From: Lepisosteus oculatus | Taxonomy: Eukaryota; Chordata; Actinopteri; Semionotiformes; Lepisosteidae | Direction: 5' to 3' | Length of the DNA stretch: 64,000 nt | Assembly: GCF_040954835.1 (NCBI RefSeq) | Contig: NC_090709.1 | Span: 43,904,490-43,968,489, forward strand | Shown here: positions 1 to 20,101 of the stretch, in pieces | How the letters are laid out: every line of letters begins with the position of its first letter | Numbering within the stretch: the first letter of the stretch is position 1 | Position numbers and translations under genes: made by a program | Notes under the pieces: generated by a model | Database searches by the model: none | What the model was told of the DNA's origin: nothing | Seen by the model: the letters and a program-made list of their open reading frames with translations, nothing else

Positions 1-1068
1 TATGGCGAAATAACTTCCTCCACAATAGTCAAGGGTCCCAGCACTGCTCCCTCTATTCATGCTTTTTAGGTAGGATTCCTTTATTTAAAAAAAAAATGAC
101 CCTGTTAGAAATGTAAAGGATCAAAAGGCAGGGCCTACGATGTAAGATAGGTGAAAAAAACTGATTTTCAGCTTTTATCATTGCGAACTGTCTCCTTTTT
201 TTTGTATTTCTGGTGTAAAAATAATAAACTTTTTTTTAAAGAGTCACTAAAGGAGTTTTTTTTTTAAAAAAAACTTTATTAAACTTTTACTGGATATCAC
301 CTAACATGAACCTATGAAGCATTCAATTAAATCCGGTGTTAACACCGGTGTCCTGGCCAAATTCCCCCCCGGTCTTTATCCATCATGGCCTCCTAATAAC
401 CCCCGTCTCTGAACTGGCTTCATCACTCTGCTCTCCTGAGAGCTGCTGTGTGGGGAGAGGACTGGAGCATCATCCAGGTGGGACTGCACACTGGTGGGGG
501 TGGAGGGGATCCCCATGACCTGTGAAGAGCTCTGAGTGGAGTGTTCAGAAAAGCGCTACAGATGTGTAAGGATTATTGACTATTCTTGTTGTCATTTCAA
601 TACAAAACAAAACAGAAAAAGTGTCAAAAAATTATAAGCGCACACACAAAACAACAACATACAACACAATACGCCACCAGAGGTTGTTATTATTATAACA
701 AATCCGAAAACCATAAGTTACAATGCTCTTTTTCGTTTGCCTAATGTTTATTTTTTAATGGGGTTGAAATAATATTGCATTTCCACCTCATCCACATGAA
801 AGGACGGAGTAGCCGTGCACTATTTCGTTGTGTGAACGCGACATGTATCCACACGGGAGAAACAAATATAACATATGAATATAAACTATATAAACAAATC
901 CTCTTTCTTTCCCACATTACGAAGTCTGCTCGCGAGTTATAACGTGATATCAAGCTCCTTAAATCGAACACATTCACCTGCTTGAAGGTAAAGGTTTGCA
1001 AAACAGCGTTTGTAAATGTTTCTGTTTTCGGCTCCACGGCCGAAAAGCTGTCTCTCTACTCTTTTCAA
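1..1068 (+). repeat. Left arm of ~1.06 kb inverted repeat
   Basis: This stretch reappears, reverse-complemented, at 2837-3893. The match starts with the first base of the window and runs inward to about 1068, so the arm may continue to the left of the window. It contains a 5S-type SINE 3' fragment near 335-580. Its first ~280 bp resemble the left end of the hAT element at 17147 (shared 'ctccctctattcatgc'-type sequence and the same T- and A-rich stretch). The inner end carries a short self-complementary motif (ggctccacggcc). No coding region was seen. It is either two oppositely oriented copies of one mobile element or one foldback unit. Confidence 0.85.
335..580 (+). mobile_element. 5S-type SINE (SINE3-like), 3' fragment
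   Basis: It matches the 3' half of the full-length copy at 24835-25440: a segment starting at 'gtgtcctggccaaattccc', then the two-allele 'catcatccaggtg' block, then 'gagtggagtgttcagaaaagc'. It lacks the 5S-derived head and is diverged. It lies inside the left inverted-repeat arm, so its mirror copy at 3345-3560 is part of the same duplication and not a separate insertion. Confidence 0.75.
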
Positions 1069-1084
1069 TAATAATTGCTTACAA

Positions 1085-1262
1085 TTATATAGCTCTTTTC
1101 TGGACACTCCACTCAAAGCGCTTTACAGGTAATGGGGTCTCTCCTCCACCACCACCAATGTACAGCCCCCACCTGGATGATGCGACAGCAGCCATAGTGC
1201 GCCAGAACGCTCCCCACACAGCAGCGATCAGTGGGGAGGAGAGCAGAGTAATGAAGCCAATT
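1085..1262 (-). mobile_element. 5S-type SINE, 3' fragment, reversed
   Basis: The sequence reads 'gcttacaattatatagctc', then 'ctggacactccactcaaagc', then 'catcatccagg' in reverse complement. This is the 3' end of the 5S-type SINE family in minus orientation. It sits just inside the left arm of the inverted repeat, in the unique spacer. Confidence 0.75.
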
Positions 1263-1629
1263 CATAGATTAAGCGCACGAACGGTTAACACGGCAGCTCG
1301 GCGACCAACGCACGTCGTTTCCTCTGTCTGGACCGCAGAGGAAACCGCAGTCTTTTTTGTAAAGAGGCGCGACTGAGCGTAAGTCAGGTTACAAAAGAAT
1401 ATCGACGCCTCGGAACACAGTCATTGAACGGCCTGGAGATACGCTTCGTGAAGCTGAAAGCGCTCTGGCGCAGTGAACCCCTCAATACCGTGAGTACTCC
1501 CGAATCAAACCGTGACCTACCTCATATGTGCTGGAGGTTCACCATATATGCGAGTCCCATCGGCAAAGAAACGACCCCGGGGACTGGTAAATCGGCCATG
1601 TTTAAAACGATAACGACTGCGTAAGAGCG

Positions 1630-1718
1630 GTACTGGTGGTGGTGGAGGGGAGTCCCTGTCATTACCTGTAAAGCGCTTTGAGTGAAGTGTCCAGAAAAGC
1701 GCTATATAAGTGTAAGCA

Positions 1719-1757
<39 letters not shown>
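1630..1757 (+). mobile_element. 5S-type SINE 3' end with ATT tail
   Basis: The 3' terminal block of the SINE ('cctgtaaagcgctttgagtg' followed by 'gcgctatataagtgtaagca') ends in an (ATT)n run of about 35 bp. That simple-repeat tail is the usual 3' end of this family. Together with the reversed copy at 1085 it suggests two separate insertions in the spacer. Confidence 0.8.
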
Positions 1758-1759
<2 letters not shown>

Positions 1760-2200
1760 TTAAGCAATAACCTGGATGACCAACTGTTCATTCCCTACCA
1801 GTGCTTTTAAAAGGGCAGATGGTCGACAAGGTCCAACGCCCGACTGTGGAAGATGAGTTCAGATCTTCCCCTTTCAGAATCTGTCAGAAAGGCGTCTCGA
1901 GTTTATTTTATTTTTTAACTTTTTATTGTAACTGCAGCCCTGAAAGTCCGTCCCGGCTGCGCCCAGCGCTTCATAGGAATGATTTCCTCGCGGGTGTGTA
2001 TGAATTTGGGTTGACGGATCTCGGATCGTTTTCTTTGCCATTTACTGTTTTTCATCAAAATAAAACAAAACTGCACCCAGCACGGTGATTCTGGGCTTTG
2101 AACCGTTGGGTCTAACTCGCTCACTGCGTGTGTTTAGGCCGCTCCGCGCTGGACACACACATCCCGCCGCAAGCCGTGTTCGTGGGACCCCCCAGCAGGG

Positions 2201-5196
2201 ATGGAGGTGCTGAAGACGGGGGTCGCCGTGCTGTGGCTGCTCTGTGAGTTTGACGCCGTCTCCCGTGTCCCCCCTGGCGAGCAGGACACCCAGTTCCACC
2301 GGGGGTCAGAGTTCGAGCTGGCCCGCCTAGCCGCGAGGGAAAAGACAAGTCTAAAATAATCATAATAATGATCGATACCGCTGCGCTGATCAGTCCGCTC
2401 CCAGTCGCTCGGGTGGGGAAAGCGAATAAGCCCAACAAAGAGAGAACGAACACGTTTCTGCACTTTGTTTTTTCACACCTTTTTCTAACAATCGAGAGAC
2501 TTTCTGTCCGTAAGAATTCCATTGTGGCCAGAAAGTGCCAGTTCCAGTTCACGAGGCGTGACGAGGAGCTGGGACTCGCTGCACTCCGGAACTCTGGTTG
2601 ACGACGCGACGGACGGCGCTTGGCCCCGTGGCGAGGCAGGGGGTGGAAATGTGAGGGCACGCAGGGGCGCGGAGCTGCGTGTTGTAACACGCGGTAAGAG
2701 CAGCAGGAGAGCGGGTCAGGAGGGGGGTGGGCGCGTCATTTCCAAGAAGCAGATCGGCTTTTCCGTCACCGCTGCCGGAGCCCCTGGCCGCCGAGCGCAC
2801 CGAGCGCCGCTTGTCGATAGAGGTTGATTCCTGTGCTGAAAAGAAAAAAGAGACACAGCTTTTCGGCCGTGGAGCCGAAAACAGAAACATTTACAACGCT
2901 GTTTTGCAAACCTTTACCTTCAAGCAGGCAAATGTGTTTGATTTAAGGAGTTTGATATCACGTTATACCTCGCAATACTTCGTAATGTGGGAAAGAAAGA
3001 GGATTTGTTTATATAGTTTATATTTATATGTTATATTTGTTTCTCCCGTGTGGATACATGTCGCGTTCACACAACGAAATAGTGCACCGCTACTCCGTCC
3101 TTTCATGTGGATGAGGTGGAAATGCAGTATTATTTCAACCCCATTAAAAAACAAACATTAGGCAAACGAAAAACAACATTGTAACTTATGGTTTTCGGAT
3201 TTGTAATAATAATAACAACCTCTGGTGGCGTATTGTGTTGTGTGTTGTTGTTTTGTGTGTGTGCTTATACTTTTTGACATACTTTTTCTGTTTTGTTTTG
3301 TATTGAAATGACAACAAGAATAGTCAATAATCCTTACACGTCTGTAGCGCTTTTCTGAACACTCCACTCAGAGCTCTTCACAGGTCATGGGGATCCCCTC
3401 CACCCCCACCAGTGTGCAGCCCCACCTGGATGATGCTCCAGTCCTCTCCCCACACAGCAGCTCTCAGGAGAGCAGAGTGATGAAGCCAGTTCAGAGACGG
3501 GGGTTATTAGGAGGCCATGATGGGTAAAGACGGGGGAAATTTGGCCAGGACACCGGTGTTAACACTGGATTTAGTTGAATGCTTCATAGGTTCATGTGAG
3601 GTGATATCCAGTAAAAGTTTTAAATTTTTAAAAAAAAACTCCTTTTGCGACTCTTTAAAAAAAAGTTTATTATTTTTACACCAGAAATACAAAAAAAAGG
3701 AGACAGTTCGCAATGATAAAAGCTGAAAATCAGTTTTTTTCACCTATCTTACATCGTAGGCCCTGCCTTTTGATCCTTTACATTTCTAACAGGGTCATTT
3801 TTTTTTTAAATAAAGGAATCCTACCTAAAAAGCATGAATAGAGGGAGCAGTGCTGGGACCCTTGACTATTGTGGAGGAAGTTATTTCGCCATAATCATGA
3901 CCTCAGCTCTTCCTCCTATCTCCCGGCTGTAGGCGACGCGTTCCGAGAGGCCAGAGGCGGCGCAGATGGGGGGCCCGCGGCGCCCACACGGGTCCCCTGT
4001 ACGGGCGGGGCCGCCGCCGCCGCCGCCCTGCCGTGCGACCTGGAGCCGCGCTACGAGACGCTGTGGTTCGTCCAGCGGCGCGACGCGCTGGCCCTGGCCG
4101 TGTCTGCCAGCAGGAGGCCCGACCACCAGGGCTTCCACTACGTCGAGAGGCAGGACCCGCGGTACGCGCTGGCGCCGAGCGCCTCGGCCGACCGCGCCGC
4201 CAGCCTGACCATCGAGCGGGTCACCCCGGCAGACCAGGGCCTGTACTACTGCGCCGACAGAGACAAGGGGCGGTTTCGCATCGGGAGAGGAGCCAGGCTC
4301 GTCTGCGTGGGTGAGAAAAGCTCTTATTTATCGAAAGGGGGGACAGCGTTGCGTGGTGGAGAGGGTGGTGAGAGCCAGCTGAGGTTTGCTCCACGCTCGT
4401 ACAACCCTCTGTGTAAAGAAGCGCCTCCTGTCCTAACTAGAAGGAGCTCACCCAGCTGTGTCTGGAGAGAAGCCAGAGTATCGGCTTCAACCGCATGGAC
4501 TGGGCAACTTGTTCCACACCCCCACCCCCCTCTGTGTAAAGAAGAGCCTCCTGTGCCGACTGGAGGAGCTCATCAGCTGTGCCTGGAGAGAAGCCGGGGT
4601 TTCGGTTTCAACCACATGGACTGGAAAGCTTGTTCCCCACCCCCACCACCCTTCGTGTAAAGGAGAGCCTCGGGTTAGCGGTTTTCAACACTCTTCTCTG
4701 TAGTTTCCACTGCAGCCCTCTGGTGTCGATGTCTCTGATTGGGAAGACAGGCCCACCGTCTATGCCTGCGCCTGACAGTCAATGTTTTTTTTTATTTCCT
4801 ATTAGTACCGCAGACGCTGGAGTCATTGATCTTTTTAGCTTGAGCGACCGAAGGTTTTTGATTTCCAACGCGGATTTGTGCGCGTTTTTTTTTAAAAAAG
4901 AGGACGGACATTTCATTTAAAAGACGAGTTGAGACGGCTAATGAAGACGAAGCCGGGTCATATATTACTGTTTTCCTTGCTCAGAGGCAGCGGCGCCGAG
5001 CGAAGGGCGAGGAGAAGCCGGCAACGCGACCCGACCCGGCGCCCCGCTTCCCCCGGGCCTGCAGCTTCCCTGCCTGCTGATCCTGCTGACGGCTCCTCCT
5101 CTGTCTGCCCTCCTCTCCTCAGTCTGCGTCTTCTGCGTCTTCCTCAGAGGGGGTGGGCAACGTTTTTTTCGTTTTGTGTCTGCCCCATTCAGGTGA
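2201..5196 (+). CDS. Ig V-type single-pass membrane receptor (3 exons, 210 aa)
   Basis: Proposed exons are 2201-2243, 3933-4310 and 4985-5196, joined in phase 1; the sum is 633 nt including the stop. Exon 1 codes for a start Met and a hydrophobic signal peptide (MEVLKTGVAVLWLL) and ends at a GTGAGT donor. Exon 2 is one V-type Ig domain: B-strand Cys in 'LPCDLEP', Trp in 'LWFVQ', 'DQGLYYCADRD' in strand F, then a J-like 'GRGARLVCV'. It is strikingly Ala/Gly/Arg-rich and GC-rich. Exon 3 gives a short stalk with a possible N-glycosylation site (NAT), a membrane segment (about 'CLLILLTAPPLSALLSSVCV') and a ~15-residue tail without tyrosine. A splice from CAG/GTGACG at 5192 to an exon near 5586 could give a longer tail. 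No recombination signal was seen beside the V exon. The fold call is strong. Ligand and function are unknown; novel immune-type receptor-like is an inference. Confidence 0.72.
2837..3893 (-). repeat. Right arm of ~1.06 kb inverted repeat
   Basis: This is the reverse complement of 1-1068, with few differences visible by eye. It lies wholly inside intron 1 of the V-type receptor and stops about 40 bp before the V-exon acceptor at 3932. The outer end 'ggaagttatttcgccata' mirrors the first bases of the window. Confidence 0.85.
3345..3560 (-). mobile_element. 5S-type SINE 3' fragment in right arm
   Basis: Mirror copy of 335-580 inside the right inverted-repeat arm. It begins with 'ctgaacactccactcagagc' and ends near 'aatttggccaggacaccgg'. 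It is part of the arm duplication. Confidence 0.7.
4380..4680 (-). repeat. LINE C-terminus-like ~110-bp modules (about 3 copies)
   Basis: Repeating block with 'cttgttccacacccccacc', 'tgtgtaaagaagagcctcc' and 'ctgtgtctggagagaagcc'. Read on the minus strand, the module resembles 'FTQRVVGVGNKLPS..VEA..LASL.TQLDE', the C-terminal signature of L2/CR1-type LINE ORFs. The period of roughly 108-112 bp keeps the pattern recognisable over several copies. It lies in the intron between the V exon and the membrane exon of the receptor gene. Confidence 0.7.
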
Positions 5197-5261
5197 CGCC
5201 CTGCGGATTATCATCCAATGGGGGGCTTCAGTAGGTCAGGACCTTGCCCAGCTGTGCCCTA

Positions 5262-5455
5262 AAAACAATATGGCTGAGCAGCTTGTTCCACACCCCCACC
5301 ACTCTTTATGTACAGACAGGTCTTCTGTCCTGACTGGAGGAGCTCATCCAGCTGTGTCTGGAGAGAAGCCAAGGTGTCAGCTTCAAACACATGGCTGGGC
5401 AGCCTGTTCCCCACCCCCACCACCCTTTGTGTAAAGACGTGCTGCATGGCACACT
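5262..5455 (-). repeat. LINE C-terminus-like modules (about 2 copies)
   Basis: Same ~110-bp module as at 4380, just downstream of the receptor's third exon. On the minus strand it reads 'FTQRVVGVGNRLPS' and then 'FEADTLASLQTQLDELLQSG'. The two copies are about 110 bp apart. Confidence 0.7.
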
Positions 5456-6599
5456 GCTTGTGGTTTGGCTTGGTCCCGCTTCTGTGTATAGACTTAAAGA
5501 GACGTTAACTCGAAGTGAAAGGGAGGTCTTAATCTCCCCACACCGAAAAAAATAAGTCATTTTATTTCTGTTTGTGTCTTTTCAGCAAAATGCGGACGAC
5601 AAACCTAAAAGGCATGAGGGAGAATCCCAGCTTCGGCAGTCGATATTTGTTTTTCCTGAGACGACCCGAACTACCCCCCAACGCCCCCGATCACCGGACA
5701 GAACTCGGCACACCGGACCCTCTACGATATAATCCGCCCTGGCACAAACCCCCAGAGCTGCGGGTCAGCATGATATCCCCCCATGCCTGCTGGCTGACTG
5801 ACACACACACACACACACCACCGGAAATGCCTCTTCTTTACCAGCGAGCTGACTGGAAGTCGAGAGCATGTCAGAGTAAGAGAAAGGGCTGGCGACTAAC
5901 CTGTTTTCTTTCTTTTTTTAATGCAAAACCAAAAAGAAGGATCTGAACACGAGCCGTTTATTGCGCTGGCCTCTGCGGCTGGGTGGAAAAGGGTGGGGCG
6001 GTGGGGTTATTATTTTTAACACAATTACGTGCTACTTCTAAGATTCCTGTATTTTCTATTGATTCTACGCGCTCCTTCCGTGAGAAATGAAACACCCCAT
6101 GTCGCGACAGGCTCGGCTGCAGGAGAGACGGGCTTTAGTTCTGTTTAAAACAAACAAAAAAATAAATACCCGCCTGTAGGTGACTTTCGCTCTGCGGAAG
6201 AGCTTTGTCGTGGTCTAAGCAGTCAGGAAGTCAGGATGCTACTCTGCGGTTTTTAAGGCGCTGTTCCAGGGAGTCTGCAGTTATTGTTCTCGCTTGTTGT
6301 GGGCTCCTTCCTTTTTCTTACTTTTTGACGTAGGGAAAAAAAAAACAATTCCCGGTGGCAAGATGTCATATGAAAAAAAGGAGCACGTGCTTATCTGTGT
6401 TCATCTGTGGCTGAAAACGGGTAGTTCGGACGTGTACCAAAACAAAACCGCCCCTACTTTAACGCTTATCACGCGAAAATGCAATAGGACTGAACCTCCG
6501 ATTAAAACGTGAAAAATAAGCATGACCGATGACTGTAAAAAAAATGGGTTTTCTTGTGCGCAGAAAACAAACAACAAATCACTCCTGTCTGTCTTGTTA
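5456..6599. other. No supported gene; possible alternative tail exon
   Basis: An acceptor-like 'tttgtgtcttttcag' at 5571-5585 is followed by a Pro/Arg-rich open stretch to about 5730-5860, depending on frame. It could be an alternative cytoplasmic-tail exon of the receptor, but no frame is clearly favoured. A short (CA)n run lies near 5801-5818. Otherwise I see nothing. Confidence 0.3.
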
Positions 6600-6950
6600 G
6601 GTCATGAGTGGTTAATTGGGTCCAGGGGCTCTCCCAGCTGTGTCTTGAGAGAGGCTTCAACCACAGGGCTGGGCAGCTTGTTCCACACCTCCACCACCCT
6701 CTGTATAAAGAAGCGCCTCCTGTCCTGACTGGAGGAGCTCATCTTAAGCCAGGGTATGGGCTTCAGCCAAAGGACTGGGCAGCTTGTTCCACACCCCCAC
6801 CACCCTCTGTGTAAAGATGTGCCTCCTGTCCTGACTGGAGGGTCTCATCCATCTGTGTCCGGAGAGAAGCCTGGGTATTGGCTTCAACCACAGGGCTGGG
6901 GAGCTTGTTCCCCACCTCCACCTCCCTTTGTGCAAAGTAGCACCGCCTGC
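6600..6950 (-). repeat. LINE C-terminus-like modules (about 3-4 copies)
   Basis: Third cluster of the ~110-bp module. Copies start near 'gctgggcagcttgttccaca' at 6667, 6774 and 6894. The minus-strand reading includes 'IFTQRVVGVWNKLPSPLAEA', which keeps the Trp of the LINE consensus (WNxLP). The regular spacing argues for local tandem amplification rather than independent insertions. Confidence 0.72.
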
Positions 6951-7559
6951 TCTCTGTCTGAAATGCACTTCCTTTGTGCCCTCTTGTCCATGATTCAGTA
7001 TTCAATCTGAAGAAGCCAGCTGGACTGACATAGCCAGTGACCTTTAAGGATCTGGAAAATTTGTATCGCATTCCTCCCATTCTCCTCTGTTTGAGAATAA
7101 AGAGATCCAGTTACTTATCCCTTCTTTTCAGCACAGAAGTGTATCCTATGTGGTCCCAGAGCAGCGATGTCTTTTTGAGTAAAATCTTATGTGGCATTCT
7201 CACCAAGGTGTGGACTATGGCGGCGTGCAAGTGGAACATTGCGTGGTTTTGTTTTTTGCAGCAGGTACCCTTGTGTACGAACGCATATTTCTGCACTGTA
7301 CCGGGGCATCTGTGAACAGGAAGTTGCCGTCATAGAAAGACAGAGGTTGCTGCGGTCTTCGCTGCCTGCAGCAGAGGAATACGTGGGGGGGGGGAATTAG
7401 ACGAATATTAAGATCTGGTCATGTACATGAAACGGGTTTGTGTGTGTGTGTACACTGCCCCATGATGAAGATTCGCTAGTCGTTCTCCAGAAACAGCAGT
7501 GAAACGTGAATCAGGAGGCAGAAGTGGACACTCAGAGGGTGTGCGTTTTGGAAAGAACG

Positions 7560-7745
7560 ATTGGCGCTACTTTACACAAAGGGTGGCGGGGGTGGGGAAC
7601 AAGCTGCCCAGCCAGGGTGTTAAAGAGAATCGCTTGGCGCCTCTCAAGACACAGCTGGATGAGATCCTCCAGTCAGGATGGGGGGGGGCGCTTCTTTACA
7701 CAAAGGGTGGCGGGGATGGGGAATGGGCAGCTTTGACATACTGTG
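7560..7745 (+). repeat. LINE C-terminus-like modules, opposite orientation
   Basis: Same module in the opposite orientation; here the plus strand reads 'YFTQRVAGVGNKLPSQGVKE' followed by 'LKTQLDEILQSG'. There are two copies, the second decayed after a poly-G run near 7680. Confidence 0.68.
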
Positions 7746-7920
7746 TTGTCCAGCCCCACCTGTGTGTGTGTCTGTCTCCCTGACTCTGACAGAAGCTTCA
7801 CAAGGCACTGATGTCCTCTGCTGTCCCCCTGGACTTAGGGGCTGAAAAAGTGTGAGGCCACATGGGTTGGTTTAATCACCTTTCTCCTCCACTTCTCTAT
7901 ATACTGAGCTGCTCCTGCCT

Positions 7921-7921
<1 letters not shown>

Positions 7922-7988
<67 letters not shown>
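7922..7988 (+). repeat. (TC)n microsatellite
   Basis: About 65 bp of uninterrupted tc dinucleotides, the longest pure dinucleotide run in the window. Confidence 0.97.
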
Positions 7989-7989
<1 letters not shown>

Positions 7990-8068
7990 CTTAGATTCAT
8001 CAGTTGGAGGTGTGATAGCAGTATCTATTTTTTTTCCTCAATTGAATGCTAACTGAAATCTCCACATT

Positions 8069-8102
<34 letters not shown>
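8069..8102 (+). repeat. (GATA)n microsatellite
   Basis: Eight tandem 'gata' units. Confidence 0.95.
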
Positions 8103-8204
8103 GATGGTAAGTGTGTGTGTGCATGTGTGATCCTGTGGAATAGGAGTCAAGCCGATAGACACATCATCAGAAGATTCTGGTTCTGGAAGAATTAGCTGGT
8201 GGGG

Positions 8205-9350
8205 GGTTCATGTCCTGCCTGTGTCTGCAGGTCCTGCTGATATTAAAAGGTTGATAAATAAAAAGATTAGGCTTTCTGTGTGTGTGCCTTTATAGAGTAT
8301 AGGTTTAGACTGTGCAGCTCCTAGATGTGTGGTTGCAGCCTCGAATCCTACCCGAGACCTGTGATTTAATTTCAAGCAAATTCTTACTAATAGTAACACA
8401 TTAATAAGTAAAGAGTTCAGTGCTGTGGTAATATGGACCTCTAGGGTTGGGGGTTAAGACATGTTCATATATAAACAAAAGGGGGGTCTATGTCAGGGTG
8501 GGTCTGTAGAGGAGAGATTAAGATATGGGGTTCTGGTCTTGCATGCTGCAGCCTGTCTGTTTTCAAGTTCATTCTTAACGACATCAACACATTGATAAAT
8601 AAAGAGATTGATCCCCTGTGGGCGGGCAGGCTTGTAGCATAGTGGTTACATCCCTAAACTCAGAAGTAGGTGGCTGTGGGTTCAAATCCCATTAAAGCCC
8701 TGATCTTCACTTTAACTCTTACTTAAATATCAGAACCTTCATAAATAATGACACTGAGGTCAGGGGAATGTGGTGCTGTGGTTGGGAGTTTAATGCTCTG
8801 TACTCATAGGTGTTAAGGTGTGGGCTCAAATCCTGGTTAGGAAGGGAGCTTTCTTTTCAATTTCTGTAGAGTAGGGGTGAAGGCTTTGCGCTCATGTTTG
8901 GCAGGTTGTGGGTTGAAATACTCCTTCAGGTGTCATTTTCAGTTACAGTCTCCCAGAGAGGGGCACATTGATAAGGAAAGAGATTGGGAATGAGGTGGTT
9001 TGGCCCTATAGAGGGTTAGTAAAGGCTGTGGGCTTGTAATGCGGAGAGTGTGGGTTCAAATCCCACCTTAGACCAGCAGTTTCTTTTCAATTACACTCTG
9101 AATAAGAGTAACATGCTGATAAGTAAAGAGAATGGGCCTGTGAGTGTATGTCTTTGTAGAGTAGGGGCTAGGACTCTGGGCTTGTGATTGCGTGGGTGTG
9201 GGCTCAAATCCTGGCAATGATTGCATGTTGTTTGTCAGTATAATTCTTAGCAACAGTAACACACTGCTAAGTGAACAGATAGGGGTTGAGCTTTTAGGCC
9301 CAGAGGTTAAGAGTCTGGGCTTGTGGCTGACTGGTTGTAAGGAGGAGAGA
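8205..9350 (+). repeat. Array of tRNA-like/SINE-like ~140-bp units, forward half
   Basis: At least six diverged units. Each has an A-box-like part ('tagagtaggggctaggactc'), a stretch such as 'ctgggcttgtgattg', and a B-box-like 'gtgggttcaaatccc'. Each is followed by a body ending in 'acattgataaataaagagat'. B-box-like motifs occur near 8333, 8675, 8820, 8912, 9052 and 9190. The pattern fits the head of a tRNA-derived SINE amplified in tandem. Cloverleaf pairing was not checked and the copies are too diverged to be working tRNA genes. Confidence 0.75.
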
Positions 9351-9358
9351 GTGAACTA

Positions 9359-9469
9359 GATGAGCCCAGGGTGAGGGGCTCTGGGGTTTACCTTTTACTG
9401 AAAATTTTCAAAAACTATCAAAATTTTCAGTAGAAGGTGAACCCCAGAGCCCCTCACCCTGGGCTCATC
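9359..9469. repeat. Near-perfect palindrome, ~50-bp arms, 11-bp loop
   Basis: Left arm 9359-9408 begins 'gatgagcccagggtgagggg'; right arm 9420-9469 ends 'cccctcaccctgggctcatc'. The loop is 'caaaaactatc'. Pairing appears to be interrupted at only a few bases, and complementarity resumes outward in 'ggaggagagagtga' (9341) and 'tcactctctcctcc' (about 9500). It is the exact switch point between the two oppositely oriented halves of the tRNA-like array. Confidence 0.9.
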
Positions 9470-9474
9470 AGTTA

Positions 9475-10985
9475 CTCTGCTCTGTCCCTGGTACCTGCTC
9501 ACTCTCTCCTCCTTACCCAGTTACCTGCCCCTGCCACTGTCACAGTTCACTCCTGAGCTCAGCACCCAGCCTGGTCTTGAACCTGTGAGAACAGTCTTTT
9601 ACCCTCTCTTCTATTGATCCCCCCACCCACCCTTATAGTTCCCCTGACTTTTCAACACCTTTCTGTCAAGAAGGACTAAACTACAAGCACACTTGTCTCA
9701 GCAGGATTGGAACCCACAACTACCAGACTGTGAGCCTCAACCTTCACACTATGGAAGCACACACTCACAGCTCCACTCTCTTCACACTTATCAGTGTGTT
9801 GACATTTCAGGAAGACTTAAACTGAAAACAGACCACAGGTCTCACAGAGGGTTTGAACCCACAACCAGTCAGCCACAAGCCCAGTCTTAGCCTCTACTCT
9901 ACAAAGGCACCCAGACATAGACCCACTCTCTTTCCTTATCAATGTGTTATTCTTCTAAAGACTGTAATTGAAATGAAACACCTGGTTTGAAGCAGGATTT
10001 GAACCCACACTCCCAGAGTTACAGACCTATAGCCTTTACCAACCCTCTATAGGGCCAAACTGTCTCATCCCCAATCTCTTTCCTTATCAATGTGTCCCTC
10101 TCTGTGAGAATATAACTGAAAAGGAAACCAGGGGTGCAAAGCAGGACTTGAGCCCACAACCCTTGCAAGCAGCCTCACACGCTTCACCACCACACCACAG
10201 GGCCAGACAACCATCAACCCACTTGAATGGAATTGGAAAGAATCATTAAGGCCCCCACAGGATTCAAACCCACAAGTCATGAGCCTAGAGACTCTTCTAT
10301 AGAGTCACACAGCCACAAGAAATTTAAGTAATGATTAAAATGAAACTAAAGCAGGAGACACAGACAGGATTTGAACCCACAACCATCCTTCCCTGATCTT
10401 AGGGCCGTAACCACTATCTTAAAGGGCTCCCCAGCTACTACCCCCAATCTCTTTATTTATCAGTGTGTTGATGTCTGAGAGAATTGAAGTGAAAAGGAAC
10501 ACGTGGTATTCAAACCTCCAACCTTTTAGCTAGCAGCATGGAGTTTTAACCACAACTCTATAGGGCCACGTGCATCCCAGTCCCCTCTTTTTATTTATCA
10601 GTGTGTTCATGTCAGGACACATTAAACTTAAACCAAAATCCACCCATGATTCAAACCCAGAACAATCCAGCCATAGGTCCAGAACCTTAGGCATTACTCT
10701 ATAGGGCCATGCACCCTGATCACCTATCGCTTTATTGATCAACGTGTTAGTACACCTGAGCTTGAAAGCAAAGCTCACATAACTCCCAGCCTTTGAACCC
10801 CTGATGCATCAGCTAAGAGTGTAGATCCCTCCCTACACACTACTCTATAGGACAGCAAACAAAGCACCCGACCTTTATTGACTCATGTGTGAATGTCAAG
10901 TAAGAATGGAAAATAAACCTCCTCTATCACCAAGGACTGGAATCCACAGCTCCCGGGCTACAAGTCAAGAGCTCTTTCCAATAAG
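9475..10985 (-). repeat. Array of tRNA-like/SINE-like ~140-bp units, reverse half
   Basis: About ten units in the opposite orientation to 8205-9350. Reversed B-box-like motifs ('aggatttgaacccaca' type) occur near 9703, 9848, 9990, 10143, 10262, 10368, 10508, 10650, 10790 and 10928. Each is followed about 50 bp later by a reversed A-box-like 'ctctatagggcca'. The average spacing is near 140 bp. Most units also share 'ctctttatttatcagtgtgtt'-type sequence. Confidence 0.75.
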
Positions 10986-11119
10986 CCCCACTGTCTTCTT
11001 GGTCTCCTATCCAACTGTCAGCGGTCACTTGTATTAAATATCTCTCTTATATCTCTTCTTTTACTCTGCGGCGGTTATGTGGCTGAATATCGGGGGGGGC
11101 AGACTAACTCAAATCGACG

Positions 11120-11620
11120 TGTGTGTTCGCCTTGAGCAACGACAGACCCATGTCCAGCGCCGTCTTGCTTGAGCTTGGTGCAACTCACACCGCCCCGCTC
11201 CTCTTTATCGTTTTCATCCTAAATCTCTCCTGCGGTCACAACCCTCGTGTCTTCTGTTGTCGGAAGTTTTCTCCGTGCTGCCCAGCGCCGCTTGCTACCG
11301 GCGACTGCCGTCCTCCGACACCTGACAGGAGAGAGGCCACTGACCCGCGGCACAGGAGGAGGGACTCGGTTTCGCGAACGAGGCGTTCTGATTGGACGAA
11401 CTCGCGTGGCTACTTATACCCGCTTTTCTTATTGGATGGCTCAGTCACTTCACCCACACAGGACGGGTAACCGCCCCTATTTAAATAAAAGAAATGGACC
11501 AATAGGAGAGTCGGTCCGCCCCCCGCAGCCACACCCCCCTCAGAGCGCTGCTCTTGTGACGTCAGTTCTCCAGCAGCCAGAGAGGAGTTGAGCTCTGCTC
11601 CTACAAATGTTCACATGTAG
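11120..11620 (+). promoter_or_regulatory. Promoter-like CpG-rich block
   Basis: CpG-rich stretch with CCAAT boxes in both orientations ('ctgattggac' 11389, 'cttattggatgg' 11428, 'gaccaatagga' 11497). It also has a TATA-like 'ctatttaaataaa' near 11478, GC boxes ('ccgccccccgcagccac') and a full CRE palindrome 'tgacgtca' near 11557. This clustering is typical of a vertebrate promoter. No exon was identified immediately downstream on either strand, so the gene it would serve is unknown. Confidence 0.45.
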
Positions 11621-11693
11621 ATAATATGCTGTCCAACCTCGACGCGCCAGATTTAATTAAAAAAAAAAACATTCTAGATCGAGACCTAGTTAT

Positions 11694-11830
11694 CAGGCGT
11701 TAAAAACGCAATGAGGAGCCCAGAGAATCATGCAAAACCCATTACCAGTCCAGTGACGACTGACTGGTACCGCCGAGACCCAGACGGAACCGGTCTCTCC
11801 AGACAGCCTGTGCCGAACTGGGTCCTATTA
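11694..11830 (+). repeat. Dispersed repeat copy, paired with 25765-25885
   Basis: Shares blocks such as 'agcccagagaatcatgc', 'ccagtccagtgacgac' and 'ggaaccggtctctccagaca' with the reverse complement of 25765-25885. The two copies are inverted relative to each other and 14 kb apart. Family unknown. Confidence 0.7.
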
Positions 11831-12675
11831 CGGCCGTGACGGCTCAGATAATGAGCTTCTGCGGGTTTCAGACCGGACTGACGTTACGAAGCGGCTTGCG
11901 GGACTGACTCAGGTGAACGAGCGGGTTTAGGAGAATAACTCCAATGACACTATCCCGGAATTCTGCCCTGAGTCACTGTTTACAGTGTTAATACACAGCC
12001 GCTCTTCGCGAAATAAATAAGATCAAGCTCAGTCTAGGAAACCTTTCGCATTAAACCACAAGAGCGCGCCACAGGTGCAAAAGCAGACTAGTTTTCCCAA
12101 TTACTGCATTTTCTATCTCAAAGACGTTTTTATATGTGCAGCCCAGAAAGATACAACTTTTTTCAAAACACAAATTCATTAAAAAATAACAGTCGGGAAT
12201 GGAAAAAGTCAGGATAAAGGCATATACAGCATGAGACACTTTCAAGAGGGAAATTATTTACTCTCAAGTACAAATTGTGCACATTTGACTAATAACGTTC
12301 CATAAAAACATCGGAGGTCCGGATATTTTCGCGATCCTTATCAACAATTGTTCTTAGTGCTACAAGAATGGAAACAAATTAGATCAGGAATATGGGCCGC
12401 TTGGCAGTTTGTAGCTAATTGATCCAAGAGTCTTATTTTTAACCCCGATTCCAGTCCAATCTTGTGTTCATTTACTCAGAGCTTCATGGTTGGTAGGCTC
12501 TTGCCTGCCAGGATCTCTGAAGGACAAAAAAAAAAAAACATCTCTAGCTGCTTATGAAGAGTCCCATTCTTCCAAAAATATAATGTAAACGATCATATTG
12601 TGTTTCGATAGAAATCTGCCCTGAGATATATTTTTTTACGTTTAATAAATAAAAATTAGTTCAATTGAATGTAAT

Positions 12676-14732
12676 TTATTGAGGTTGTGCTCTGACATAG
12701 CGCCCATCCGCTTTCCAGATGAAAAGGAGCTGCTCTGGGGGGATTCCGGATGCAGGGGTCCCATCACAGTGGAGAGTGACCTCGTCGCCGACTCTCACCG
12801 ACACATCCGCATTTGCAGACGATGCTGGGAGACAATCAGGAGGGAGCAACATCAACGAGAGACAAAGGCCCTTCAATCCAGTTTGAAAGAGTGTGATCAT
12901 ATGAAACACAGCGAGACACTCCTGTACACTATTCACAAGAAACTATGTCTTTTGACTCCAATTTAAAAGGGTGTGATCATGCTAAACACCAGAGACTCCA
13001 GGCAAAGCTTACACAGTGAGACACACATTTGAGACAACACATTTTTACTCCAGTTTAAAAGAGTGTGATCAGACAGATCAGGGGAAACTGGTACACTGTT
13101 CACCTCCATTTATAACCGACTGGAAAAATTCTTGAATGAAACTAGGATTAATTCATTCAGGGTCTTGTTTCCTATGGAAGCTTATTGGCGCCACAGAGGA
13201 AAAAAAATTAACTCATTTATACAAGAAAGTTATTCAGTTTAAACACAATAGTTAATTTGTGAACAATGTCACCTCCTATATTAATACTGTGTATTTCATT
13301 GTACTGTATGTGCAATAATATTGCCCCATGTTGGGGAACTACCATCTCTTCTTACCCTGGATATCAGAAGCAGTTGCATCTATGATAAGCTGGACTAGGC
13401 ACTTGTGTCAATTTTCAGTTTTTGCTGCTCAGTCTCTTTCAGAAGATGAAACAGTGTAGATCAAGGCAAACCCAAACACACCTCCAGTGTATCTGGCAAT
13501 AGTCAACAACATTATTTCATTTATTTCAATAAGAATAAGAATACTCATAAATCTTTGTAAAAACTTATATTCACCAACCAAAAACAAATGTGAAGTTTGA
13601 TTAGCCGATTCTCAAGGAGTTCTTAGTTAATAATTGTCATATTAATGGTCATTTATTTAATATCATGAGAAATGAGATGTGTGATTTCATTTACTATCCT
13701 ATTAACTTCTACACAACACCATTTAGGGTTTTAAAACATGCAGATATCCCCTAAACATTTTTATCTGCGGCACAAATCCAACTGGATAAATATTTTTTAG
13801 AAAAAAAAACTTTAAAACCGATACACTGCTGAAAAATACACCTCTCGCACACAAATTATTCTGAATTTATCCCCAAACCTTATTTAATATCAAATGTATA
13901 TTTTCACTGTTTCAGTTCTTATTTTTTAAGAGATTATGGAAAATAAAGAGTGCCCAGTCTGAGTGAGAGATCAGAGGTGTGTCCAGCGTGCAGGGACAGT
14001 GTGAGAGGGAGAGATCAGAGGTGTGTCCAGCATGCAGGGACAGTGTGAGAGGGAGAGATCAGAGGTGTGTCCAGCATGCAGGGACAGTGTGAGAGGGAGA
14101 GATCGGAGTTGTGTCCAGCGTGCAGGGACAGTGTGAGAGGGAGAGATCAGAGGTGTGTCCAGCATGCAGGGACAGTGTGAGTGGGAGAGATCGGAGTTGT
14201 GTCCAGTGTGCAGGGACAGTGTGAGAGGGAGAGATCGGAGTTGTGTCCAGCGTGCAGGGACAGTGTGAGAGGGAGAGATCAGAGGTGTGTCCAGCATGCA
14301 GGGACAGTGTGAGTGGGAGAGATCGGAGTTGTGTCCAGCGTGCAGGGACAGTGTGAGAGGGAGAGATCAGAGGTGTGTCCAGCGTGCAGGGACAGTGTGA
14401 GAGGGAGAGATCAGAGGTGTGTCCAGCGTGCAGGGACAGTGTGAGAGGGAGAGATCGGAGGTGTGTCCAGCGTGCAGGGACAGTGTGAGAGGGAGAGATC
14501 GGAGGTTTGGTCAACGTGCAGGGACAGTGTGAGAGGGAGAGATCAGAGGTGTCCAGTGTGAGATTATGTGATCTGGGGCTCCTCTGGTCAGTACAGGTCA
14601 GGTGTGCCAAGAGGGAATTTGTGAATTGTTGAGAGTGAAAATCAACAGGAAATATAAATTTGTGAATGGAAATTGATACTCACCCTCTGTCAGTGCAAGC
14701 AAAAGAAAGAAAACCAACACAAGAAGTCGCAT
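12676..14732 (-). pseudogene. Truncated Ig-domain gene (2 exons seen)
   Basis: On the minus strand, 14732-14684 codes for a clear signal peptide (MRLLVLVFFLLLALTE) and ends at a GTGAGT donor in phase 1. The acceptor 'tctcccag' precedes exon 2 (12824-12676), which continues in frame: 'SSANADVSVRVGDEVTLHC' (Ig A'/B strands with B-strand Cys), then 'LLFIWKADGRYV' (C strand Trp), then a stop after 'RAQPQ'. The domain is cut off before the D-F strands and the second Cys. No continuation was found in the AT-rich sequence below 12676. The product would be a secreted fragment of ~65 aa. A decayed gene or a lost 3' part is most likely. The gene points away from the receptor at 2201. Confidence 0.65.
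13970..14555 (+). repeat. 44-bp minisatellite, about 13 copies
   Basis: Unit of 44 bp: 'gagagggagagatcagaggt', 'gtgtccagcatgcagggaca', 'gtgt'. Copies differ mainly at agaggt/ggagtt and cgtg/catg. It lies within the intron of the truncated minus-strand Ig gene. Long ORFs through it are only repeat read-through, because 44 is not a multiple of 3 but all frames lack stops. Confidence 0.95.
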
Positions 14733-16604
14733 CGTAAGATTCACCCTGGGGAAAGAGACAAGGGACCTTAAAGAGGGAACTACCGTGTTTTTTTATACAT
14801 CAGGGTTAGAAAGATACCGTTTGCTGATGTAAAACAGGAACATATAAAACCTCTAATTTCCTGACTTACACTGAATCTCCGCAGTGTTCTGTGATTCAGA
14901 ATGAATCGAGGGAAACACAACTGCCAGTGAGGTGGAGCGGCCCTGTGACACTGTCCACTCAGGCTTGTGGATCTGTCTCTTTTAATCCAGTAGAAATCCT
15001 GCTCTTGACTTCCAAATGGATTTGCCCACCAATATGTTTAATTCTTAACTCAGCCTGCAGATCATGCTGGAACAATTCTGTGTGAAACGTCTGCTGCACA
15101 ACCTGGACGTATTCGCTCGCACATCCGTACATCTGTCATCACAGGGACTAGTGAGCAGGAAGGGCCGCATCACAATTTGTTGGGATTCTCAGTCGTGCCC
15201 ACGGCGAGACCAGGGGTTTGCCACAACATAGCGACTTACAGTACTTTCACAAAGTTCACGATTCTGTGCCGTATTTTGAAATTTGTACAATGTTTCTAAA
15301 CCTGCAATTAATTTATTTTGTCAGAGATTTAATAACCGGTCTGAGAACCTGGGACTGCAGTTCCTCTTTAATGTAGCCTGGTAATCTAGGTGTAACACAG
15401 GTGTCCCCCGCTACCAGACGCAGTACTCAGGTCCTGTGCCATTCCAAGAAACCCCCTGGAGACCCTCCAAATGCATATTCTTGATTTCTCAGAAAATAAG
15501 AGATCCCCACTCAGAGCCTGACCACACAGCCATCCCGTCTGAATTCTCTGTAAATCTGTGCTCTGCTGCAACACACCTGGAGATTCGGTTATGAAGGAAT
15601 CTATGCATTATTTCATTCTTAAAGCTTATTTTATCAAACACGTCGCGATGTTAAACCGTTCTGTGACCACCATGTTGTGAGATTTCCAGGAGCGACGCCT
15701 TTAATTAATTCTCATCTCTCCCTAAGAATGCAACGAGTTTATCGTATTTTAACAGCAGAACGTTGAATTCAGACGCCACAAACTGGAGTCTAAAACAGAG
15801 ACCGTCGTATTTGTCAAAGTAAGAAGACTGGTTGGTAAAATATCTACACTCTGTCATTGACAAATCTGGCAAATGACTCCACTGGTCCACTTTTCCGTGT
15901 CAGTATAAACTACAGAACTACAGGTGTCGCTCTGCCTCACCTCCCCGCCCGGCTGCAGGTCTCCAGCGCTCAACACCGGCTCTGTCTTACTCATTACTTT
16001 TGCTCTGTTGCTTTAAATGTCACCGCGCTACTTTTCACCAGTTTTAAACCTCCGTGCACGGGCTGCCTGAAGCCGCAAGGAGGAAAGTAACTATTCATCC
16101 TGTCTGAAGCCCACAACCCAAACTAAAGGAAGTTTTTGGCCGGACATCCGACTCCTCCAAGATACACTCAACTTCCACGCTAGTTTCTATCATGTTGTCG
16201 AAGGAAAAAAAAAAATCACGAACGTAACTACGATGTATTTAAAAATTAAACTGGTAAAAGTTCGTTTTCTTTAAATTAAAAAGTAAAATATATTATTGTA
16301 ATCGACACTATGTTTTATTTTTCAGTTCAATTCCATCTGATCACGTTCAGTCTCATCCCCCCCAAACCTCCAGTGAAGACGCCGGGACGGATCAATAATA
16401 CTCGCCTGTGTGACGAGAGAAAGAGGAACTTTGCAACTGAACGAGTGAAATAGCAACGAGTTTAGACGATAAAGACGATGTATCTCACGCCTGACAGCAG
16501 CGAGGCTCGGTGCCGGTGGATCAGTCCCCGACAGAGAGAACCAAAGCTCGCGGCAGGTTTGAAGAAGCTAACTAGGCGCACTAGCTACAGTCTGTGGGCA
16601 GGAC
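14733..16604. other. No supported gene
   Basis: Upstream side of the minus-strand Ig gene. Short ORFs only, none with recognisable domains. CCAAT-like and TATA-like motifs are scattered but not convincing as a promoter. Confidence 0.5.
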
Positions 16605-16690
16605 TTCGACCTCCGCCGCATTGTGATCGGATAAATACAGAGAAGCCCTACACCTCCGCCGTATTGTGATTGGATAAATCCAGACAAGCC
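16605..16690 (+). repeat. Two-copy short tandem repeat
   Basis: 'cctccgccgcattgtgatcg' with 'gataaatacagagaagccc' is followed by a second diverged copy, with a period of about 41 bp. Confidence 0.75.
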
Positions 16691-16744
16691 CCAACACGAA
16701 CATTTAGTAACCTTGAACTCGCTCTCTCTCTCTGCTCACGGAGA

Positions 16745-17130
16745 TCAGAAATTGTACTAGAAAAAAAAATGAGTATATGGAATTTCTCTCCCAAGTTGGT
16801 TTTTCCATATAAACGTGATATGGAATTTGTGTTAAAATGTCACTTTGACATTAATAGAATTCCTCTTAAATTATCTAACTTTCTTAAACAAGTTCTATTG
16901 TGTTTGGATTTAATATATAAGCATAACTTTTCACCATATACATATAGTATTTGGAATCATAAAAATAGAAGGTATCAAAATAAAAGCATATTTTTTACGA
17001 CTTGGTATGATAACAAAATCTGGCTAGTGGCCCAATTGTGTGTTATCTGTATTTTGTAATAATGAGAAGGAATCTTTGTTACCTTTTTTTCTTAACTGCA
17101 GATATACAAAACTGTTTGGGATAGATTTGC
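16745..17130 (+). mobile_element. LINE fragment, L1/Tx1-like ORF2 C-terminal part
   Basis: The open frame reads 'FLKQVLLCLDLIYKH', 'SIWNHKNRRYQNKSIFFTTW' and 'YDNKIWLVAQL'. This resembles the post-RT region of fish L1/Tx1-type LINEs ('WNN..I..K.KS.FF..W...GI'). Only ~390 bp remain; the RT core is absent. The hAT element begins immediately downstream. Confidence 0.55.
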
Positions 17131-17146
17131 AAAATGGTATTTTCCA

Positions 17147-18761
<1,615 letters not shown>

Positions 18762-19759
18762 TTCTAGCATATAGAAACCTATTGTAAAAATAGAAGAGCG
18801 GTCACACCCTGTTGGCATGCAGTGGAGACGTGCGCCATTGCTGGTTGAGACGGGGGAGGTTCCCCGACTCCTCACTGGGTTTCTAGAAAACACCCAAGAA
18901 GGAACTGCTTCACAACGGAGTGAGGGGAAAAAAAAGAGAGAATATGAAGAAAGGGAAACGATCGACGGGGCTCAGGAACAGATGCCAAGCTGCAGAGATG
19001 CAAAGAGTTCGGGAGCTGCACAAACCAGCCTGCCGGGGTGTCTCTCACTCGTCTGAGTGCTTCTGGGGCTCTCCGAATTGTGGACGGCCCTTCATAACGG
19101 CCTTTACACATCTTGTGATGTTTTAACATTGGAGAAACTGTCCCCTCGGGGCAGGTAGGTCACCTTTCCTTTTCTTGGATTTGGTCAGGGTGCGAAGGCC
19201 CCAGGCACTTGCACTCCGAAATGTTGCAAAAAGAGGGATGAACGCTGCAGTGGCTTCCGAGATATCTCTTCCGTTGTTCTTGCGCATAACACAGGAGTCC
19301 AGGTCGACGGCATGATTTTATGACGAACAGAGCAACGTTTACTTGTAAGGTGGCGCTCGTATCCTTTTTTTATATTAAACAATTAAATTATAAATAATTT
19401 ACAAATACAACCAGATGATCAGAAACGGGTACAAGAGGAAAAAACAAACATTTAACCGCCAGACGTAATGAAGTAAATTATGTGATCAAGTCACAAAATT
19501 AAAGTTAAAAAAATAAGGTCACTTAATAATAGATGTAAGAGCTCGGAGCATTATAGAGCGATCGACGTTTTGTGAGGCCGATCGCCGATTTTATGATCCC
19601 TGGGTGTGTGTGGCGTGTCACTATCCAGCCCAAGACGCACAAGATGGTAGAATGGTTTTATTAACAAGACGGACAACGATTGTTGCAAGCAGCTCACATG
19701 AAGTGACAAGCAGCAGGTTAACGGTCCTTTTATCTAAGGAAGATGACCATAATCCGAAG
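18762..19759. other. No supported gene
   Basis: Only short ORFs without recognisable domains, AT-rich from 19370 to 19560. Confidence 0.45.
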
Positions 19760-20101
19760 AGTATTTTTTTTATTTCTTTCGAGATGGAGGCGTGCTGGTG
19801 GCATCCTGCCTGTTACAGCACCTCTGTGTCTTGTTTGTCGTCTTTTCTTTTCTTTCGGTTGGTTTTTCTTTCTTTTCTTTGCTGGCGGGTCGATTTGCGA
19901 TCACACAACAAGATGGATACTAGGGAGTCGAGATACTACTTTTTGGCTGTTACTCGGACCACTGTTTGCTTCCGGTTGTAATGCAGATAGCTGCAGAGTA
20001 AGTGTTTACACACGTGACGCGCTGGGAGCACTGGTGAGGAGGCGGAGGGAGTGTAGAGCATGCAGTATCGTGTGTTTAACTGAGATGTGGCTGCAGGAAC
20101 A
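19760..20101 (+). mobile_element. LINE fragment, L2/Rex-like 5' part and endonuclease start
   Basis: Includes 'RESRYYFLAVTRTTVCF' near 19922, like the N-terminus of L2/Rex-type ORFs. A piece of the endonuclease domain at 20018-20100 reads 'ALGALVRRRRE' and 'SIVCLTEMWLQEQ'. That piece is repeated at 21048-21130. Joined at 20101 to a reversed LINE 3' end. Confidence 0.6.

Follow-up and report, generated by a model that had tools for sequence, protein, structure and literature searches.

In the ampliconic palindromes of sex chromosomes, arms are kept nearly identical and spacers are found inverted. Near-identical arms and inverted spacers are also what likens them to the gar family described here, whose arms, in contrast, consist of only ~1-2 kb of tRNA-like units on the MHC chromosome, with one group of arrays nested in a larger palindrome. 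The inverted repeats IR-L and IR-R of the Schizosaccharomyces pombe mating-type region hold several B boxes and adjoin a gene cluster that is silenced; as reported for IR-L, whose boundary role is shown, a 327-bp deletion removes five B boxes that are needed for full boundary activity (PMC4502379). The gar array resembles these repeats, yet it is a vertebrate array of ~20 tRNA-like units, many of them decayed. In vertebrates, the tRNA variable-number tandem repeat at human 1q23.3 is a Pol III-gene tandem repeat of unstable copy number, described as having units of 7.3 kb that contain genuine tRNA genes as well as CTCF sites (PMC4041453), whereas the gar units measure 145 bp, are mirrored and have no maintained fold. 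Inverted arms built of tandem repeats are also described for the foldback transposon Tetris of two Drosophila species (PMC4079207), in contrast to the gar family, which was found on one chromosome and whose window group was carried by segmental duplication. No description of such mirrored arrays was found in the literature searched, which is weak evidence of absence.

Organization of the Array

The stretch analysed (the window, 64,000 nucleotides of Lepisosteus oculatus) corresponds to C14:43904490-43968489 in a 1.2-Gb genome. It was compared with similar arrays on the same chromosome, mainly L029 (41.036 Mb), L030, L032, L033 and L034 (38.47-38.71 Mb) and L027 (46.10 Mb). Within the window, tRNA-like units of ~145 bp follow one another at a spacing of ~142-150 bp and form two opposed arms between positions 8025 and 10985. 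The family HMM recognized nine plus units (8124 to 9338, the last one truncated) and ten minus units (9643 to 10981). The plus arm proper (8124-9282, plus strand) holds eight units starting at 8124, 8280, 8496, 8624, 8769, 8863, 8998 and 9144, which scored 40.0-98.5 bits each with the family HMM and E-values of 8.5e-6 to 7.4e-22 with an independent HMM. It is preceded by a weak partial unit (8025-8085, plus strand; model R1, 18.7 bits, E 2.7e-4) and followed by the truncated plus unit (9298-9338, 15.6 bits); by inspection against L029 and L030, the rest of this unit and the inner plus unit are absent from the window. The minus arm (9643-10981, minus strand) has ten units with starts at 9643, 9774, 9923, 10071, 10225, 10323, 10444, 10583, 10724 and 10874, each scoring 27.8-103.5 bits, nine of which were also recovered by the independent HMM. 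Beyond the family HMM matches, a further innermost minus unit (position 0, ~9540-9642, minus strand), the counterpart of L029 2750-2824, was found by alignment to L029: positions 9524-9680 share 128 of 155 bases with the L029 inner unit and its flank, with a score of 97 compared to a maximum of 27 in 200 shuffles.

Between the arms lies a core (9341-9515) made of two hairpin arms (9359-9408 and 9420-9469, 96% complementary) and a right-hand remnant, the left core appearing on inspection shorter than that of L027 (7578-7790). The independent HMM, whose training units came solely from L029 and L030 (17 in all, aligned by means of the family HMM), gave 18 matches in the 64 kb, all of them inside 8000-11000 (span 8124-10972), and nothing of at least 15 bits in 100 dinucleotide shuffles of the array stretch, which rules out chance as its source. 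The window array is thus real, with about twenty decayed tRNA-gene-like units in two mirrored arms.

The initial annotation, made from the letters of the window, had described units of ~140 bp in two orientations that meet at a palindrome, with B-box-like motifs and a common 3' segment; these features are all present, the units measuring ~145 bp. Its count was ~16 units (about six plus, ten minus), compared to 19 by the family HMM (nine plus, ten minus), and its left edge at 8205 was set ~80-180 bp too far in. The units do face each other as proposed; the hairpin at 9359-9408/9420-9469, however, is a separate core with its own axis, distinct from the mirror axis of the arms (i+j = 19058).

Elsewhere in the window, a 44-bp tandem repeat (13.5 copies, 94%) occupies 13961-14552, and at 42841-63002, within 20 kb, five matches to tRNA exceed the gathering score of Rfam, four of which are named by ARAGORN (Thr-CGT, two Ile-TAT and Lys-TTT).

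Conserved Features of the Unit

The family search yielded 154 hits, of which 125 had at least 100 nt and 66 were non-redundant. In these 66 units conservation peaked at 1.34 bits per column in the B box, closely followed by 1.30 in the tail, 1.25 in the TTTTCA motif and 1.16 in the head; it was average in the A-box region (1.00) and low in the anticodon region (0.71) and after the B box (0.63). Of the A-box-like and B-box-like motifs initially annotated, the B box is clear and the A-box region is only average in conservation. The consensus of the common 3' segment is GATAAGTAAAGAG. Of the 37 units among these whose B box was recognized by the search word, 27 carry TTTT no more than 45 nt beyond it (13.8 expected), 22 of them at 19-22 nt. 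The tail, ~30 bp before the next tRNA-like start, could be the place of a TATA-like element. B-box-like words (up to two mismatches) are concentrated in the array, which with 8100-11050 covers 4.6% of the window length and contains 16 of its 42 words, as are exact GGTTCRANYCC matches (five of nine), and several B boxes of the window copy are decayed. The GATA-like word TGATAA is also enriched (nine inside the array, 1.6 expected); being part of the repeated unit, these sites are non-independent.

A conserved RNA fold was not detected. RNAalifold predicted no pairs in 48 of the 66 non-redundant units, and T-stem pairing reached 3.81 of 5 in 64 units compared to 3.76 with shuffled partners, and 497 of 2000 shuffles attained the observed value. 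The best Rfam tRNA scores were 18.9 bits in the window array, 25.5 in L029 and 24.4 in L030, against a gathering score of 29 bits, and ARAGORN called no tRNA in window 8000-11000, two in L029 and one in L030. A functional tRNA gene cluster was ruled out by these sub-gathering scores, the ARAGORN results and the absence of cloverleaf conservation. What remains of the unit resembles DNA of a Pol III promoter and terminator, and not a tRNA. Its conservation could reflect current selection, or be a legacy of the period of amplification.

Mirror Pairing of the Arms

Whether plus unit n pairs best with minus unit n had been proposed as the check that separates a palindrome from tandem growth. In the window, eight mirror pairs (the inner six set by the i+j axis, the outer two by unit order) had a mean identity of 66%, compared to 59% for shuffled pairings, and only 8 of 20,000 shuffles were as good. 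The mirror partner was the best of the eight candidates for six of the eight units, and the best among all ten minus units for five of eight. The best-kept arm segment (8929-9175, plus strand) pairs with 9883-10129 at 81% over 247 nt without gaps.

The sister loci are much less worn. In L029 the inner four units have mirror identities of 94-98%; in L030 the partners of the five fetched plus units are 96-100% identical, one being tied with a second unit; and in L032 four plus units have best partners of 81-100%. The mirror mean was 84.8% in L029 (0 of 20,000 shuffles as good, best hits in only four of nine) and 98.2% in L030 (187 of 20,000, best hits in five of five), both values being optimistic as the partners were assigned post hoc. 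At L010 a first register failed (57.8%; 15,902 of 20,000 shuffles as good; no best hits in nine), and a shift by one unit gave 64.0% (33 of 20,000; four of nine), which is weaker evidence because the register was chosen post hoc. The plus arms of L030, L032 and L033 run beyond the stretches compared. The L029 minus arm has ~5 extra units, as indicated by two mirror axes (5280 and 6007) and by the unit matrix, and these we judge to be a probable later tandem gain. Within arms, mean identity is 58% in the window and 68-74% in L029. Mirror similarity beyond the array ends was found neither in the window nor in L029.

The window array is therefore a palindrome and not the product of tandem growth of each arm alone, and the suggestion of a once-palindromic block that has since diverged is borne out by the matching of plus n with minus n and by the near-perfect palindromes near the centre of the sister loci.

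Related Loci and Chromosomal Context

Matches to four array queries were all on C14 (74/74, 34/34, 60/60 and 13/13, the last being the core query at E <= 10; first-look candidates 35, 32, 39 and 8). As a control, the dispersed repeat at window 1080-1260 yielded 3,386 candidates; 40 of these were scored, and 32 lay off C14. The counts of these genome searches are lower bounds, very common words having been skipped. Within the reach of such searches, the family is confined to C14.

L029, L030, L032, L033, L034, L027 and the window group have in common the hairpin of the core together with one or more inner units. They form four groups, all with plus units on the left, minus units on the right and the common hairpin core between them. 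As RNA, four cores fold at -113 to -193 kcal/mol; all Rfam matches of the core were below gathering scores. Orthology between loci is clear for the inner two unit positions (91% and 86% between L029 and L030; 76% between the window unit at 9643 and the L029 unit at 2848), and not for the units beyond them. The inner plus unit is missing from the window copy and from L027, and the window lacks in addition part of the left core. In L031 (3.70 Mb, one of six similar places) only minus units were seen in the 4.5 kb examined. In L035 and L036 there are four units that alternate in orientation, and no core match. Inspection also revealed an LTR-like block with CCAAT, TATA-like and polyA-like words (L030 2420-2890, L033, and parts in L032, L035 and L036), which adjoins the arrays at 38 Mb as well as the mini-arrays of L035 and L036. 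Two arrays, that of the window and that of L029, have on their left a repeated stretch, GCTTGTTCCACACCCCCACC..., located at window 4404-7723 and at L029 454-808.

The window array itself sits inside an arm of a palindromic block of at least 36 kb. Window positions 1-20000 are the right part of this segmental duplication, 20000 being the limit of the comparison and not the end of the block; the spacer is at ~1068-2836, the centre at ~1950-1980, and the mirror arm lies to the left of the window. Its arm segments are 93.9-97.6% alike in five pieces and 69.7-87.1% in three. With the window, the block has five copies on C14, the others being at 53.7 (right arm incomplete), 55.4, 57.8 and 58.5 Mb, with longest matching segments of 95.5-99.4%. 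Around the block centre (window 1-4299), 2837-4299 forms an inverted repeat of 95.5% with the left arm ending at 1067. The 1.8-kb spacer has, on inspection, a signal-peptide-like exon near 2200, and a V-set exon at ~3950-4310 is mirrored by a copy in the left block arm. An inversion of the spacer would join the signal-peptide-like exon to the other V exon. The longest alignments place the spacer in the same orientation relative to the arms in all five copies.

Ig V-set matches were found in two open frames of the window (3866-4660 and 32086-32850). MHC_I domain matches are also concentrated on C14 (32 of 33), and some lie among the array loci, at 38.595-39.153 and 41.093-41.132 Mb. Farther away, at 6.5-33 Mb, 17 matches cover MHC_I positions 94-177; 13 share a score of 65.3 bits and 14 carry a 232-aa open frame, and these are amplified MHC-like sequence. 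In the bowfin, the MHC is reported on pseudochromosome 14 (PMC8423624).

Origin and Possible Function

The reading that we favour, and hold to be probable, is that of a C14-confined, arm-homogenised palindrome that spread by segmental duplication, the window copy probably being a decaying passenger. A tRNA-like Pol III-type unit of ~145 bp, with a B box, a weaker A box, TTTT and a conserved stretch before the next unit, would have been amplified head to tail; the units lie in inverted orientation around a core able to form a hairpin of 145-213 nt. The arms would then have been kept alike by arm-to-arm gene conversion or inversion. Two observations point to this step. The L029 arms are mutually closer (96.2% alike over 609 aligned bases) than L029 is to L030 (85.5-86.8%), and the central array of L033 is inverted against an uninverted flank: L030 2059-3006 matches L033 1804-2758 directly in the right flank (97.3% over 955 bases), while the best match of L030 1-1698 is inverted (L033 1753-34, 91.6% over 1723) and the loop is reversed. 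Such an arrangement indicates that a segment within the palindrome was inverted, an event that arm-to-arm recombination would be expected to produce. L034, with its inverted loop, was rejected as a second case, since its outer array is inverted too (L030 2059-2308 vs L034 422-173, 95.2%) and the inversion thus takes in the array as a whole. Close to the centre, arm identity reaches 94-98% at the loci of 38 Mb and 41 Mb; among the four 38-Mb loci, identities of 94.4-98.5% within and 93.6-98.0% between the computed pairs are non-discriminating. Against this reading, units beyond the two inner positions show no clear orthology from locus to locus, so that arms growing in mirror fashion after the separation of the loci would need a conversion that is itself presumed.

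Spread along C14 would have taken place inside segmental duplications and not by transposition; for the window group this is shown by the flanks copied along, and the remaining groups may have followed the same route. Part of the centre and much of the arm identity are gone from the window copy, which most likely persists as a decaying passenger. The younger copies, being palindromes, may favour the inversions and duplications observed in their surroundings. Against a pure passenger speaks the uneven conservation along the unit, which a passenger would not need.

This unevenness is one of the points in favour of a possible, though unlikely, alternative in which the mirrored B boxes would recruit TFIIIC, with or without Pol III, and the resulting platform would lie between blocks of MHC and Ig genes as a boundary in the chromatin or an anchor of loops. 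The array has multiple B boxes in inverted orientation, five of the nine exact GGTTCRANYCC words of the window among them, and it is the B box, TTTT and the upstream stretch, not the RNA fold, that show conservation. Mirror pairs also differ less in the B box (61/250) than elsewhere (610/1808, p 0.003) in a comparison of 18 pairs of the window, L010 (shifted register) and L027 that partly reuses the family-wide column conservation, and the five B boxes of S. pombe IR-L offer a reported precedent (PMC4502379). However, several B boxes of the window are decayed, and because differences are rarer still in the tail (67/383) and TTTTCA (15/98), and conservation of the A-box region is no more than average, the pattern is not TFIIIC-specific. 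Distinctly unlikely is the wider proposal of a family that would do in a vertebrate what the B-box inverted repeats do in yeast, in which mirrored, fold-free Pol III promoter arrays would bind TFIIIC, insulate MHC class I and Ig-receptor blocks and, as palindromes, drive the inversions and block duplications that multiply these immune genes on one chromosome.

The SINE-derived satellite suggested in the initial annotation, that is, a tRNA-SINE amplified locally in tandem, now seems improbable. The tRNA-like head with its B box and the conserved A/T-rich 3' segment would fit such an origin. TTTT stops transcription by Pol III and would be expected to truncate the transcript of a SINE, and yet it follows the B box in most of the units scored; moreover, four queries revealed nothing off C14 when the control lay on many contigs, although a diverged source below the search sensitivity is possible, and the mirrored arms and common core are left unaccounted for. 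A SINE as such is unlikely given the C14-only distribution within the reach of the searches and the internal TTTT. The window array does not fit satellite DNA in the sense of long homogenised tandem arrays, having ~10 units per arm and a mean within-arm identity of 58%, although L029 is more homogenised.

A foldback-type DNA transposon with tandem repeats in inverted arms appears quite improbable. The long inverted arms of tandem units around a loop are as described in Tetris (PMC4079207), but all matches are on one contig, the window group was copied with at least 36 kb around it, and the arrays have no demonstrated common termini.

It is very improbable that the locus is a hairpin-RNA gene (siRNA- or miRNA-like) whose core or read-through arms are transcribed and diced, as the strong folding of the four cores is shared by any near-perfect inverted repeat, the Rfam core matches are all sub-gathering, and Pol III would be expected to terminate at the TTTT runs close to the centre. 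By the same anatomy, convergent Pol III transcripts would not by themselves form the double-stranded RNA once envisaged: mirrored arms read inward give the same RNA and not complementary ones, so that read-through across the centre would be needed.

Significance

Returning to the homogenised palindrome, what stands out is a set of mirrored Pol III-type arrays with a common hairpin core, in four locus groups on one chromosome, in and beside a fish MHC. From near-perfect to worn, these arrays constitute a natural series for the survival of palindromes in vertebrate genomes. They allow asking whether organisms other than yeast have inverted repeats dedicated to TFIIIC boundaries, and whether palindromes seed the duplication of immune genes.
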